A stretch of DNA of 64,000 bases from an uncultured Reyranella sp. (lineage in GTDB: Bacteria; Pseudomonadota; Alphaproteobacteria; Reyranellales; Reyranellaceae), in contig NZ_CAMFKM010000003.1 in NCBI RefSeq assembly GCF_945957355.1, positions 310,001 to 374,000 of the forward strand. The letters run 5' to 3'. The notes beneath the pieces are model-generated. The model was given only the letters and a program-made list of their open reading frames with translations. It did not search any database and was not told the DNA's origin. A program made the position numbers and the translations under genes. Positions 2,271 to 8,554 of the stretch are shown piece by piece (positions within the stretch are counted from its first letter, which is position 1; every line of letters starts with the position of its first letter).

Positions 2271-3353
2271 ATGGCTTCATCCTTCCTGCGGGCCCTTGGC
2301 CTGATGAGCGGCACCTCGGTCGATGGTGTCGACGTGGCGCTGATCGAGACCGATGGCGAGCGCGTGGCCGCGTTCGGGCCGACCCTGACCGTGCCTTATC
2401 CGGACGAGGACCGCCGCACTATCCGTGCGGCGTTCGGCGCCACGGCGGAGACCGAAGCGACGCGAGCCGCCGAACGGGTCGTCACCGAGATGCATGTGGC
2501 GGCCGTTCGCGCCTGGGCCCAAAGGACGGGCATCGCGCCCGACACTATCGATCTCGTGGGCTTCCATGGCCAGACCATCACGCATCAGCCCGACCGCCAC
2601 TTCACCTGGCAGATCGGCGACGGCGCCGCGCTCGCGCGGGCGCTGGGCGTGCGGGTCATAAACGACCTGCGCACGGCCGACGTGACGGCGGGCGGGCAGG
2701 GCGCGCCGCTGGTCCCTGTATATCACGCGGCCCTCGCGGCCGACCTGACTCGGCCGCTCGCCGTCGTGAACATCGGCGGCGTCGGCAACGTCACCTGGAT
2801 CGGCGCCGACGGGTCGCTGCTGGCCTTCGACACGGGCCCGGGCAACGGACCAATCGACGACTGGTGCGCGCGCCGGGCCGGGCAACGCTACGACAAGGAC
2901 GGTACGCTGGCGGCGGCCGGCAAGGTCGATCGCGCCAGGGTGGAACGCTTCGCGGAGCACCGCTTCTTCGCGAAGGCGCCGCCCAAGTCTCTCGATCGCG
3001 GCGACTTCAACGATGCCTGGGCCGAAGGGCTGAGCGTTGCCGACGGCGCCGCGACGCTGACGCGCGGCACGGCCCGCGCCATCGCGCTGGCGGCGAAGCA
3101 CTTTCCGGCGCCGGTGTCACGATGGGTGATCTGCGGCGGCGGTGCGCGCAATCCGACACTGCTGCGTGCCATCGCCGAGGAGACGGCGGCCAAGGTGGTG
3201 ACGGCAGAGGATCTGGGATGGGACGGCGATGCGCTGGAAGCGCAGGCCTTCGCATTCCTGGCGGTGCGTTCCCTGCGCGGCCTGCCGCTGACGTTTCCCG
3301 GGACCACCGGCGTGCCGCATCCGATGACGGGCGGCCGGCTCAGCCAACCTTGA
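2271..3353 (+). CDS. anmK: Anhydro-N-acetylmuramic acid kinase
   Basis: [22 protein letters not shown]-terminus and GGGARNPTL motif. Confidence 0.96.
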
Positions 3354-3367
3354 TCAGCAGCCCCTGA

Positions 3368-4042
3368 TCAGGGCTCCTTGTTGCTCGTCGCACGACCCGG
3401 CGGATTGAGCAGGCTCTTGGCGACGTACTTGTCGACATCGACCGCGAGCTTGTCGAGCGAGTCGTGGAAGAAGTGGTTGGCGCCCTTGATGGTGCGCGAC
3501 TCGACCGTGATGCCCTTCTGGAGCGACAGGCGCGCCACCAGCTTCTGGATGTCGGCCTGCGGCACGACCTCGTCCTTCTCCGCGCCGACGATCAGGCCGG
3601 AAGACGGGCAGGGGGCGAGGAAGGCGAAGTCATAGGAATTGGCGGGCGGCGCCACCGAGACGAAGCAGTCGATCTCGGGCCGGCGCATCAGGAGCTGCAT
3701 GCCGATCCAGGCGCCGAACGAGTAGCCGGCGATCCAGCACGACTTGGCGTCGGCATTCATGCCCTGCAGCCAGTCGAGGGCCGCGGCAGCGTCGGACAGT
3801 TCGCCCATGCCGTTGTCGAAGCGCCCCTGGCTGCGGCCGACGCCGCGCGTATTGAAGCGCAGCACCGAGAAGCCGCGATTCACGAAGACGTGGAACAGCG
3901 AGAACACGACCTTGTGGTTCATCGTCCCGCCATATTGCGGGTGCGGATGCAGGATCAGCGCGATCGGCGCGCGTTCTTCCTTGCTCTGGTGATAGCGACC
4001 CTCAAGGCGACCTTCGGGGCCGGTGAACATCACGTCAGGCAT
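3368..4042 (-). CDS. Alpha/beta hydrolase
   Basis: LHPHPQYGGTMNHKVV, GYSFGAWIGMQ nucleophile elbow, ANHFFH. Confidence 0.85.
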   Translation of the reverse strand: MPDVMFTGPEGRLEGRYHQSKEERAPIALILHPHPQYGGTMNHKVVFSLFHVFVNRGFSVLRFNTRGVGRSQGRFDNGMGELSDAAAALDWLQGMNADAKSCWIAGYSFGAWIGMQLLMRRPEIDCFVSVAPPANSYDFAFLAPCPSSGLIVGAEKDEVVPQADIQKLVARLSLQKGITVESRTIKGANHFFHDSLDKLAVDVDKYVAKSLLNPPGRATSNKEP

Positions 4043-4115
4043 CGAGACTCCGGTTTTTCACCCTGATCGACCCTCCGGTCGTAACTGATCTGACAGTGGC
4101 ATATGGGGATTCTCG

Positions 4116-4140
4116 ATACTTGACCAACTCACTGGGATTT
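4116..4140 (+). promoter_or_regulatory. Candidate IscR type-1-like binding site overlapping the iscR promoter
   Basis: ATACTTGACCAACTCACTGGGATTT matches 19/25 positions of the E. coli type-1 consensus ATASYYGACTRwwwYAGTCRRSTAT (counted by hand); lies upstream of iscR. Confidence 0.5.
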
Positions 4141-4281
4141 ACTAAGTCCGAGCGACGCAGTTGGTTTTTTCCCAGAACCCCTGTCTGGGGCGCTGGCATA
4201 TCGTAGCAACGCCTTGGTTTTCAAGAACTTTAGGCGTTTCCATAGCGAAGACCGGCCGATTCCGGCCGTGAGGAGGATGCT

Positions 4282-4758
4282 GTGAAGCTCAGCACCAAGG
4301 GACGTTACGCCGTCATGGCGATGGTTGATCTGGCCAGACACGCCCAGGCGAAGCCGGTCAGCCTGTCGGATATCGCCACCCGTCAGGAAATTTCCCTTTC
4401 ATATCTCGAGCAGCTTTTCGCCCGTCTGCGGCGCGCCGGTCTCGTGAAGAGCGTCCGTGGTCCCGGCGGCGGCTATCGCCTGGCCAGGGGCTCGGCGGAC
4501 ACCAGGGTGTCGGAAATCATCCTGGCGGTGGACGAGCCGATCAGCGCCACGCGCTGCACCGAGATGGGCGCGACCGGCTGCCGGGCCGACCGCAGCAAGT
4601 GCCTGACGCACGACCTGTGGGAGGAACTCGGCAACCAGATCCACCTCTTCCTGAGCTCGGTGACCCTGCTCGACGTGCTGGAGCGCAAGCTCGCGTCGCG
4701 GTTCATCGAGGCGCCGTCGGCGGCGAACACCGAATCCTCGTTGGCCGCCGCCAGCTAG
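4282..4758 (+). CDS. iscR: Rrf2-family Fe-S regulator IscR
   Basis: MKLSTKGRYAVMAMVDLA, Cys-ligand region RCTEMGATGCRADRSKCLTHDLW; adjacent to isc genes. Confidence 0.92.
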   Translation: MKLSTKGRYAVMAMVDLARHAQAKPVSLSDIATRQEISLSYLEQLFARLRRAGLVKSVRGPGGGYRLARGSADTRVSEIILAVDEPISATRCTEMGATGCRADRSKCLTHDLWEELGNQIHLFLSSVTLLDVLERKLASRFIEAPSAANTESSLAAAS

Positions 4759-4784
4759 TTTCGCCAGTTGGTTTCGAAAGTCCG

Positions 4785-5915
4785 ATGTCCGCTCTCGCTT
4801 ACCTGGACCACAACGCCACTAGCCCCCTGAGGCCGGCGGCGTTCGATGCCATGGTGGAAGCGCTGCGCGCGGGCGGCAATCCCTCGTCGGTCCATACGGC
4901 CGGCCGCAAGGCGCGGGCGATCGTCGACAGGGCGCGCCGGGAGGTGGCGTCGCTTGTGGGGGCCCGCGCCACGGAGACGATTTTTACGTCGGGCGGTACC
5001 GAGGCCAACAACCTGGCCCTGGCGGGTACCGGGCGGCGGCGGGTGCTGGTGTCGGCCATCGAACATGACAGCGTTCGCCAAGCCGTGCCGCAGGCGGAAA
5101 TCCTGCCTGTCGATGGTGACGGTGTTCTCGATCTCGCCGCACTGGAGCGCGCGCTCGCGGCGCCGGCCGAGCCGGCGCTGGTGTCGGTGATGCTGGCGAA
5201 CAACGAAACCGGTGTACTGCAGCCGCTCGCCGAAATCGTGCGCCTGGCGCAAGCGGCCGGTGCGCTGGTGCATTGCGATGCCGTCCAGGGAGCGGGGAAG
5301 GTGCCGGTCGATTTCCGGGGCCTCGGCGTCGACTACCTGAGTCTGTCCGCCCACAAGCTGGGTGGCCCGACCGGTGTCGGGGCTCTGGTGGTTCGGAACG
5401 GTGCGCCATTCTCGACGGATCGCCGGGGCGGAGGACAGGAGTCCAATCGCCGTGCCGGGACCGAGAATGTCTCCGGCATTGCCGGCTTCGGCGCCGCTGC
5501 CAGTGAGGCGGCCTCGGGCCTGGACGTATCGGGATTTCGTGACCGGCTCGAACTTGCCCTTGTCCAGATTGCGGCAGGGGCAAATGTTTTCGGTGCAAGG
5601 GCGTCGAGGATTGGCAATACCACGTGCATATCGATGCCCGGCGTGCCGGCTGAAACGCAGGTCATGGCGCTCGATCTTGCCGGCGTCTGCATCAGTGCGG
5701 GCGCCGCCTGCTCGTCCGGCAAGGTGCAGCGGTCTCCGGTGCTCGAAGCGATGGGCGTACCGGCGGCGGAAGCGGCCTGCGCGATCCGGATCAGTCTCGG
5801 ATGGAATACCGAGGCGGCCGATATCGAACGCTTGATTGCCGCATGGCAGGACCTATATATCCGAGTGAATAAGTCGGATATTTCCCACACCCATCGTAGG
5901 GCCAGGGCGGCGTAG
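4785..5915 (+). CDS. Cysteine desulfurase (IscS/NifS-like, first copy)
   Basis: LDHNATSPLRP, SAHKLGGPTGVGAL, GGGQESNRRAGTEN, catalytic loop SAGAACSSGK. Confidence 0.92.
   Translation: MSALAYLDHNATSPLRPAAFDAMVEALRAGGNPSSVHTAGRKARAIVDRARREVASLVGARATETIFTSGGTEANNLALAGTGRRRVLVSAIEHDSVRQAVPQAEILPVDGDGVLDLAALERALAAPAEPALVSVMLANNETGVLQPLAEIVRLAQAAGALVHCDAVQGAGKVPVDFRGLGVDYLSLSAHKLGGPTGVGALVVRNGAPFSTDRRGGGQESNRRAGTENVSGIAGFGAAASEAASGLDVSGFRDRLELALVQIAAGANVFGARASRIGNTTCISMPGVPAETQVMALDLAGVCISAGAACSSGKVQRSPVLEAMGVPAAEAACAIRISLGWNTEAADIERLIAAWQDLYIRVNKSDISHTHRRARAA
5857..5881 (+). promoter_or_regulatory. Candidate IscR type-1-like binding site upstream of iscS
   Basis: ATATCCGAGTGAATAAGTCGGATAT: perfect 8-bp dyad (ATATCCGA/TCGGATAT), 21/25 match to the E. 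coli IscR type-1 consensus by hand; inside the 3' end of the upstream desulfurase ORF. Confidence 0.6.
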
Positions 5916-5933
5916 GAGTTTCAAGGGGTTAGC

Positions 5934-7172
5934 ATGACAGCCATTACCCAAATCCGGCGCAACGATCAGCCGATCTACCTGGACTATCAGGCCACCACGC
6001 CCATGGACCCGCGGGTCCTGGAGGCGATGATGCCCTATTTTACCCACAAGTTCGGCAACTCGGGTTCGCGCAGCCACGCCTACGGCTGGGAAGCCGAGGA
6101 AGGCACGGAGAAGGCGCGCGCCCAGGTCGCCAGGCTGATCGGGGCCGACGAGAAGGAAGTCATCTTCACTTCCGGCGCCACCGAGTCTAACAACCTCGCG
6201 ATCCGCGGTGTGGCCGAGTTCTACAAGGACCGGAAGAACCACATCATCACGACGGTGACCGAGCACAAGTGCGTGCTCGATACCTGCCGCCATCTGGAGC
6301 AACAGGGCTTCGAGGTCACGTACCTGCCGGTGCAGAAGGACGGGCTGCTGGATCTCGACGTGCTGCGTGCGGCGATCACCGACAAGACGGTCCTCGTCTC
6401 GGTCATGGCCGTGAACAACGAGATCGGCGTCATCCAGCCGTTGGCCGAGATCGGCAGGATCTGCCGCGAAAAGAAAGTCTTCTTCCACACCGACGCGGCC
6501 CAGGCTGCCGGCAAGATCCCTCTCGATGTCGAGGCGCTCAACGTCGACCTGATGAGCATCTCGGGTCACAAGATCTACGGGCCCAAGGGCATTGGGGCGC
6601 TCTACGTCCGCCGCAAGCCCCGGGTGCGGCTGGTGCCGATGATCGTCGGCGGTGGCCAGGAGCGCGGTTTCCGCTCCGGTACCCTGCCGACGCCGCTGTG
6701 CGTCGGTCTGGGCGAGGCGGCCGAGATCTGCATGAAGGAGATGGACGCCGAGGCCAAGCGGCTGAAGAAGCTGCAGGAGCGCATGCTGAACGGCTTGCGG
6801 GCCAAGCTCACGGATATCGTCGTCAACGGCGACCTCGAGCACCGTATTCCGGGCAACCTCAACATCAGCTTCGCGTATGTCGAAGGCGAGTCGCTGATGA
6901 TGGGCATCAAGAACCTGGCGGTTTCGTCCGGTTCGGCCTGCACCTCGGCCTCGCTCGAGCCCAGCTACGTGCTGCGCGCCCTGGGCGTCGAGGAAGACAT
7001 GGCGCACACGTCGCTGCGTATCGGCCTCGGCCGCTTCACGACGGAGCACGAGGTCGATACCGCGGTCGATGAGCTCGTGCGCCACGTCAACAAGCTGCGC
7101 GAGATGAGCCCGCTCTGGGAGATGGCCCAGGAAGGCATCGATATCAAATCCATCGAGTGGGCTGCCCACTGA
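5934..7172 (+). CDS. iscS: Cysteine desulfurase IscS
   Basis: [61 protein letters not shown]. Confidence 0.96.
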
Positions 7173-7208
7173 CGTTTCGGGCGCTGCTCGAGAATTGAGG
7201 AGAATGTC

Positions 7209-7619
7209 ATGGCTTACAGCGAGAAGCTGATCGATCACTACGAGAACCCGCGCAACATCGGGTCGTTCGACAAGACGGCCGGGGATGTCGGCACCGGCCT
7301 GGTCGGCGCACCGGCCTGCGGCGACGTGATGAAGCTGCAGATCAAGGTCGGCGCCGACGGGCTGATCGAGGACGCCAAGTTCAAGACCTTCGGCTGCGGC
7401 TCCGCGATCGCCTCCAGCTCGCTCGTCACCGAGTGGGTGAAGGGCAAGACGATCGACGAGGCCGAGGCGATCAAGAACACCGACATCGCGCGTCACCTGG
7501 CGCTGCCGCCGGTGAAGATCCACTGCTCTGTCCTTGCCGAGGACGCGATCAAGGCGGCGATTGCCGACTATCGTGCCAAGGCCGCTAAGAAGGACGACAA
7601 GGCCGACGCGGCCGAGTAG
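7209..7619 (+). CDS. iscU: Fe-S scaffold IscU
   Basis: MAYSEKLIDHYENPRNIGSF, ACGDVMKLQI, GCGSAIASSS, LPPVKIHCSVLAEDAIKAAI. Confidence 0.97.
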   Translation: MAYSEKLIDHYENPRNIGSFDKTAGDVGTGLVGAPACGDVMKLQIKVGADGLIEDAKFKTFGCGSAIASSSLVTEWVKGKTIDEAEAIKNTDIARHLALPPVKIHCSVLAEDAIKAAIADYRAKAAKKDDKADAAE

Positions 7620-7639
7620 CCATTCCGGAGCACATTCGT

Positions 7640-8032
7640 ATGACCACGACCACCGAGACTCCCAAGCCCGCAGCGGCCGCGCCGCGGCCGCGCCGCCCCC
7701 GTCCGAAGCTCATGACGGTGACGCCGCTCGCGGCCGAGCGCGTGAAGGCGCTGATCGACGGTCGTGGCAAGCCGACGGCGGGCGTCCGGATCGGCGTGCG
7801 TACCAAGGGCTGCTCGGGCTTGAGCTACACGCTGGAGTTCGCCGACAAGCAGGAGCCGATGGACGAGGTCATCGAGGCCGAGGGCATCAAGCTTCTGGTC
7901 GACCCCAAGGCTTCGCTGTTCCTGATCGGCACCGAGATGGACTACGAGGAAGAGAAGCTGAAGTCGGGCTTCGTGTTCCGGAACCCGAACGAGAAGGGCC
8001 GCTGCGGCTGCGGCGAATCCTTCCACGTCTGA
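7640..8032 (+). CDS. iscA: Fe-S assembly protein IscA
   Basis: RTKGCSGLSYTLEF and C-terminal CGCGESFHV. Confidence 0.95.
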   Translation: MTTTTETPKPAAAAPRPRRPRPKLMTVTPLAAERVKALIDGRGKPTAGVRIGVRTKGCSGLSYTLEFADKQEPMDEVIEAEGIKLLVDPKASLFLIGTEMDYEEEKLKSGFVFRNPNEKGRCGCGESFHV

Positions 8033-8041
8033 AGACCGGTC

Positions 8042-8554
8042 ATGGATCATTTCGCGCGGCTGGGACTGCCGGCGGCGCTCGATCTCGACGCCGCCGCGCT
8101 GGACAGGGCCTATTTCGCGCTTCAGCGGCAGTGGCATCCCGACCGGTTCGTCTCCCGGTCGCCCGAGGAACGGGCGCGAGCCTCGGCGGAGGCTGCGTCT
8201 CTCAACGAAGCCTACCGCACCCTGAAGGACCCGCTCAGCCGCGCCTTCTACATGGCCGAGCGGGCCGGCGTGGAACTGCCGGGCGACGGCAAGACCATCG
8301 ACGACCCGGACCTGCTGATGGAAGCCATGGAAGCGCGCGAGGCGCTGCATGACGCCGAAACGCTCGAAGCGGTCGACACGCTGGCCGCTGATGCGCGCCA
8401 GGATGTCCGGAAGGCGCTGGCGGGGCTCGCCAGTTTGTTCTTGGCAAACGACAGGGCCGCCATCAGAAAGACGCTCCTTCGCCTGCGTTACCTCGACAAG
8501 TTCGCCGAGGAAGCGCGGGCACGACGCATGAATATTGAACGGTCGACTTCATGA
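8042..8554 (+). CDS. hscB: Co-chaperone HscB (J-domain)
   Basis: J-domain WHPDRF, HscB-type C-terminus; 4-bp overlap with hscA. Confidence 0.93.

Follow-up and report, generated by a model that had tools for sequence, protein, structure and literature searches.

In E. coli the iscRSUA genes are driven by one promoter, and we know of no internal type-1 promoter before iscS in that organism. IscR type-1 operators are themselves well known. The isc locus of an uncultured Reyranella sp., a bacterium of soil and water, raises the question of whether its Fe-S assembly genes have a second promoter of this kind, written into the last codons of the gene in front of iscS. The locus was studied within a window of 64,000 nucleotides (the whole stretch of DNA analysed; contig NZ_CAMFKM010000003.1, positions 310,001 to 374,000), and positions are counted from its first letter. 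A first-pass annotation, made from the letters of the window, had pointed to an IscR type-1-like box inside the 3' end of a cysteine desulfurase gene and suggested that iscSUA-hscBA-fdx-iscX has a promoter separate from that of iscR. Searching the literature for IscR in Reyranella, or for an IscR promoter located internally before iscS, turned up no relevant paper.

The isc locus and the dyad before iscS

The genes concerned are as follows.

4282 to 4758, forward strand: iscR, the proposed cognate regulator (NCBIfam TIGR02010, 189.7 bits; alignment with E. coli IscR; PDB relatives 4hf1, 4hf2 and 4chu)
4785 to 5915, forward strand: NifS/IscS-like cysteine desulfurase 1, with the predicted promoter-operator in its last codons (330 bits to NCBIfam NifS, short of the equivalog cut-off)
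5934 to 7172, forward strand: iscS (NCBIfam IscS, 702 bits, above the cut-off), the first gene of the predicted internal promoter
After iscS, to 11017: iscU, iscA, hscB, hscA, fdx and iscX (NCBIfam names)

Every gene from iscS onward has an NCBIfam match, and the order iscS-iscU-iscA-hscB-hscA-fdx-iscX is that of an isc operon. IscS, IscU, HscB, HscA and IscX score above a curated NCBIfam cut-off; for IscA and Fdx these are the best NCBIfam matches, yet they stay below the equivalog cut-offs. Desulfurase 1 and iscS are separated by 18 nt without a terminator, so transcription from the iscR promoter should read through, and an internal promoter would therefore add to that read-through and not replace it. 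A search of Rfam over positions 3000-8500 gave no match.

The regulator encoded at the head of the locus looks like an IscR. Aligned with E. coli IscR, it has the SYLEQLF recognition helix, the RGPGGGY motif and C-x7-C-x6-C-LTH ligands. The stretch ISLSYLEQLF...SVRGPGGGY is identical at the winged-helix residues S40, Y41, E43, Q44 and R59 (E. coli numbering), and the Cys3His ligands of a [2Fe-2S] cluster are present in all Reyranella IscR proteins, with a spacing one to two residues longer than in E. coli. In E. coli, IscR represses the iscRSUA genes including its own, and the Reyranella protein is alike in recognition helix and Fe-S ligands. TIGR02010 is its best family by far, at a score below the equivalog cut-off of 207.55 bits; it is called an IscR orthologue from its residues and context and not from that model.

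The elements before iscS, three of them inside the desulfurase gene, are these.

5832 to 5837, forward strand: -35-like TTGATT (TTGATY in the genus), on the Leu-Ile codons TTG-ATY; TTGAT is invariant, and TTG (10% usage) has no synonymous changes
5854 to 5859, forward strand: -10-like TATATA, 16 nt 3' of the -35 and overlapping the dyad; TATAT is invariant, and the codons CTA (0.7% usage) and TAT are frozen
5857 to 5881, forward strand: predicted IscR type-1 operator, a near-perfect dyad ATATCCGAGT-N5-A(G/C)TCGGATAT at about -9 to +16 of the predicted iscS promoter
5923 to 5928, forward strand: Shine-Dalgarno-like AAGGGG before the iscS ATG, in a conserved leader TTTCAAGGGGTTAGC and kept in most of the genus alignment

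The dyad, ATATCCGAGTGAATAAGTCGGATAT, agrees with the E. coli IscR type-1 consensus (ATASYYGACTRWWWYAGTCRRSTAT) at 21 of 25 positions. On recount, the sequence, coordinates and number of matches given in the first-pass annotation all held, as did the encoded desulfurase tail YIRVNKSDISHTHRRARAA, the TTGATT-16 nt-TATATA arrangement and the distance of about 50 nt to iscS (52 nt from the end of the dyad to the ATG at 5934). The strict E. coli pattern with up to three mismatches found nothing, because the dyad has four. One difference lies in position 9 of the left arm, where the dyad reads GAGT against GACT in the consensus, and the five-base spacer is frequently G-rich in relatives against WWW in the consensus. 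In 5.76 Mb of order-3 Markov background modelled on the window there was no match at 21 of 25 and there were three at 20 or better, and the 5.79-Mb genome has a single copy of the exact dyad. By its match to the consensus, the dyad qualifies as a putative IscR type-1 operator.

A weight matrix was also trained on 27 operon-promoter sites from alphaproteobacteria other than Reyranella, none of them located before iscS. Training without Reyranella sites avoids circularity, and the 27 sites are not independent of the E. coli consensus since they were chosen as the best consensus matches before cysE-iscR or iscR. With this matrix in palindromic form, the iscS dyad is the top site in the window at 24.3 bits, the fourth-ranked site reaching only 5.8, and nothing as high appeared in 5.76 Mb of first-order Markov sequence. 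Two P. aeruginosa IscR sites known from DNase footprints score 24.6 and 25.2 bits with the same matrix, level with the dyad. The isc sites of P. aeruginosa follow the same 25-nt half-site logic (site B is ATAGTTGACCTAATTACTCGGATAA), and the left arm of site A reads GAGT like that of the dyad (PMC6599224).

The promoter hexamers are less striking as such. TTGATT-N16-TATATA agrees with the sigma-70 consensus at 8 of 12 positions, short of 9 of 12 at a spacing of 16-18 nt, and the pair is absent from the output of a standard promoter scan. The hexamers and their spacing are conserved among relatives (30 genomes), and the case for a predicted iscS promoter rests on this conservation, not on consensus match. 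The strength of such a promoter is uncertain; by consensus it would be weak.

Conservation and codon choice in Reyranella

Every one of the 30 Reyranella genomes in the alignment keeps the dyad and the TTGATY-N16-TATATA-like element. None of them departs from TTGAT, TATAT or CCGAG, and the TATATA position always lies 16 bases from TTGATY. Dyad position 17 alternates between C and G, as it does among the type-1 sites of the training set.

The first-pass annotation had proposed to weigh conservation of the dyad against codon constraint, and the comparison bears out its expectation: the inner synonymous sites are frozen and the flanking ones vary, so protein sequence does not explain the conservation of the DNA. 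Synonymous changes were counted on a 28-genome tree constructed from the codons ahead of 5800. None occurs at the six-fold codons TTG (5832), CGA (5862) and TCG (5874), and the 41 other conserved six-fold codons show a mean of 6.8 changes, with a minimum of 1 and none at zero. A permutation test gave p = 1.5e-4. At CTA (5853) the only replacement is TTA, which preserves TATAT. Several of the frozen choices are rare in the genome (CTA 0.7%, CGA 3.3% and TTG 10% usage), and the inner six-fold codons undergo 0-2 changes.

The edges of this constraint are narrow. The codon at 5880 reaches one base past the dyad with its third position (5882) and has 7 changes; the codon at 5820, beyond the -35, has 6. 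Bases immediately flanking the elements vary freely, and most codons outside are unfrozen. Several of the frozen codons rank among the rarest, and the constraint boundary closely fits the element, so that selection for coding and for regulation can be seen acting together here in a clean natural example.

A probable second IscR-controlled promoter and its alternatives

The iscR promoter itself carries two predicted sites.

4116 to 4140, forward strand: predicted IscR type-1 site 1 of the iscR promoter, overlapping the -35 TTGACC (4120-4125); second in the window at 21.7 bits and conserved in the genus
4144 to 4168, forward strand: weaker IscR-like site 2, starting at the -10 region and placed like the iscS dyad; third in the window at 10.6 bits

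The iscR promoter shares half-sites with the iscS dyad. Site 2 reads CCGAGC-N5-AGTTGG in window-like members of the genus, and its left arm varies in others. Since the -10 region is where site 2, too, starts (TAAATCCGAG in relatives, compared with TATATCCGAG), the putative iscS promoter resembles the site-2 half of the iscR promoter, with a better dyad. The tandem layout of the Reyranella iscR promoter resembles the two sites of P. aeruginosa. There, the IscR type-1 sites of the isc promoter overlap core promoter elements and holo-IscR represses (PMC6599224). The P. aeruginosa sites lie in the intergenic iscR promoter, whereas Reyranella has an extra one farther downstream, within the 3' end of a coding region, where it would serve iscS.

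The iscR leader contains a further near-invariant block, ATATCNTAGNAACGCCTTGGTTTTCAAGANCTTTNGGCGTT, at 4198-4238 throughout the genus. It may form an RNA hairpin with an invariant loop, and covariation is weak, with one doubly changed pair. It could serve as an RNA element or as a second site for a protein.

Taken with the codon data, these features make it very probable that the element in front of iscS is a Reyranella-specific promoter for iscSUA-hscBA-fdx-iscX, repressed by holo-IscR and embedded in coding sequence. RNA polymerase would use the TTGATY/TATATA pair and start near 5866. The dyad begins within TATATA and spans this predicted start, so by position alone operator and core promoter overlap and the site is placed as a repressor's would be. 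Holo-([2Fe-2S])-IscR, whose gene lies two genes upstream from iscS, would bind across the -10 and the start and repress. When clusters are scarce, IscR would lose its cluster and leave the type-1 site, and the assembly machinery would be transcribed more. Since the iscR promoter has type-1 sites of its own, the regulator with desulfurase 1 and the core machinery would be on two IscR-controlled promoters, and these could differ in set point. The comparative evidence (shared half-sites, the matrix, and the invariant -35, -10 and spacing) supports the operator and promoter suggested by the first-pass annotation; its word "separate" should read "additional".

It is tempting to go further and suppose that the promoter in coding sequence, and not the iscR promoter, is the main regulated promoter of the Reyranella Fe-S machinery, with machinery and regulator tuned to different cluster levels. 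The idea comes from the dyad outscoring every other such site found in the genome, and we offer it as a tentative one, somewhat doubtful at present. The literature yielded no description of such two-level tuning of machinery against regulator for isc operons. The internal promoter could also be minor beside read-through from the iscR promoter.

Bound IscR might instead act as a roadblock to transcription arriving from the iscR promoter, at a real site with no internal promoter. The short terminator-free gap between desulfurase 1 and iscS and the weakness of the hexamers would suit this explanation. However, a roadblock has no need of TTGATY and TATAT, which are kept invariant through rare codons and at constant spacing, and we consider it very unlikely.

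The dyad might also act in RNA and not as a DNA operator, as a hairpin in the iscR-desulfurase-iscS transcript that serves processing, stabilises the message or controls iscS translation. In E. coli there is processing or RyhB-type control near iscS, and the Reyranella transcript can fold an 8-bp stem (z = -3.1 against shuffles). Yet pair 9-17 is broken in 18 of the 30 genomes and pair 4-22 in 5 of 30, with a double compensatory change in one sequence only, which indicates that the arms are conserved as sequence and not for pairing. The same half-sites occur at the iscR promoter with non-complementary arms, and the fixed TTG and TAT in the upstream -35 and -10 are not what selection for a hairpin would produce. 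An RNA hairpin therefore seems very unlikely.

A transcription factor other than IscR could be the one that binds. Five Rrf2 proteins in the genome score above the family cut-off, and the left arm does deviate at position 9. Against this, the SYLEQLF helix occurs among these five in IscR alone, the genes of the other four have no comparable sites near them, and a matrix built from iscR and cysE promoters scores the dyad like footprinted IscR sites. We give this explanation very little weight. An origin of the dyad by chance or by protein-coding constraint on the desulfurase C-terminus can practically be dismissed: although the genus also conserves the encoded YIRV-x-x-SDI tail, the synonymous freeze (inner six-fold codons frozen, several of them rare, and most outer ones not) already refutes such an origin, and in one outgroup (G038) the YIR protein context persists although the dyad is absent.

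If the predicted IscR-repressed promoter is real, a whole genus has its isc operon divided into two units under IscR control, and the second promoter-operator lies within the codons for an enzyme of the pathway. Promoter searches confined to intergenic DNA would miss such an element. In the literature searched, no genus-conserved IscR operator with its own promoter in coding sequence was found dividing an isc operon.

Occurrence within and beyond the genus

Scored with the matrix, the iscS-proximal site reaches 16-25 bits in 12 of 12 named Reyranella loci. The other alphaproteobacterial loci scored give at most about 1 bit before iscS, save one. The nearest relative sampled beyond the family, in the same order (G037), has no such site before iscS and a strong one upstream. 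The exception is an alphaproteobacterial MAG (L097, 4138-4162) with an intergenic type-1-like site, ATAGTTGACTTCAGCACTATGTTAT, between a desulfurase and iscS at 13.4 bits; it may be an independent origin of the same arrangement.

The cysE-iscR-desulfurase-iscS operons in the other Rhodospirillales examined have the Reyranella gene order from iscR onward, and their operon promoter likewise carries a type-1 site. They differ in having a single type-1 site about 900-1000 bp before iscR, ahead of cysE, and none before iscS, whereas in Reyranella iscR stands directly behind the promoter and a second site precedes iscS. In four loci of non-Reyranella Rhodospirillales and relatives (L048, L081, L094 and L104), cysE (serine acetyltransferase) comes first in the isc operon with the IscR site ahead of it. 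At the operon head Reyranella lacks cysE and has a divergent hydrolase instead.

Two alphaproteobacterial isc-suf operons offer partial parallels. In Caulobacter an IscR ChIP peak lies at the sufB end, for which separate regulation was suggested; like the Reyranella dyad, it is at the 3' end of a coding gene within the operon (PMC11475020). Unlike the Reyranella site, this peak precedes suf genes and is stronger in iron-scarce cells (PMC11475020). In Rhodobacter sphaeroides an internal promoter before sufB likewise subdivides an Fe-S operon (PMC4618611). That promoter is described as IscR-independent (PMC4618611), whereas the one predicted in Reyranella has the window's best IscR site.

Sites were also ranked genome-wide by pattern and profile searches. 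A genus-wide pattern, drawn after the site was seen, has matches in 46 of 46 genomes, against 1 match in 46 genomes for the reversed-pattern control. In one genome (G017) the match sits elsewhere, and no close desulfurase 1 orthologue was found there. Where identified, the recurrent matches are those of iscS, iscR and rpoH. A profile of these three kinds of sites (R1) ranks the iscS dyad and the iscR promoter at the top in their own genome, with E-values that are not independent because R1 contains the window site. A second pattern match in the genome (C1:272954, L033) falls within a reading frame resembling that of an epimerase and was dismissed as probably due to chance.

Across Reyranella (L144-L154), the rpoH (sigma-32) promoters show type-1-like sites, either one or a pair spaced by about 40 nt, placed around a TTGACC; a CIRCE-like TTAGCAGTC-N9-GAGTGCTAA comes next. 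In the window's own genome (L155, about 1400-1530; G000:C3:66333) the rpoH sites are degenerate, at 10-13 bits. This layout suggests that the heat-shock sigma factor may be under joint control of IscR and HrcA in the genus. In Caulobacter, rpoH has been reported as one of the confirmed IscR targets (PMC11475020).
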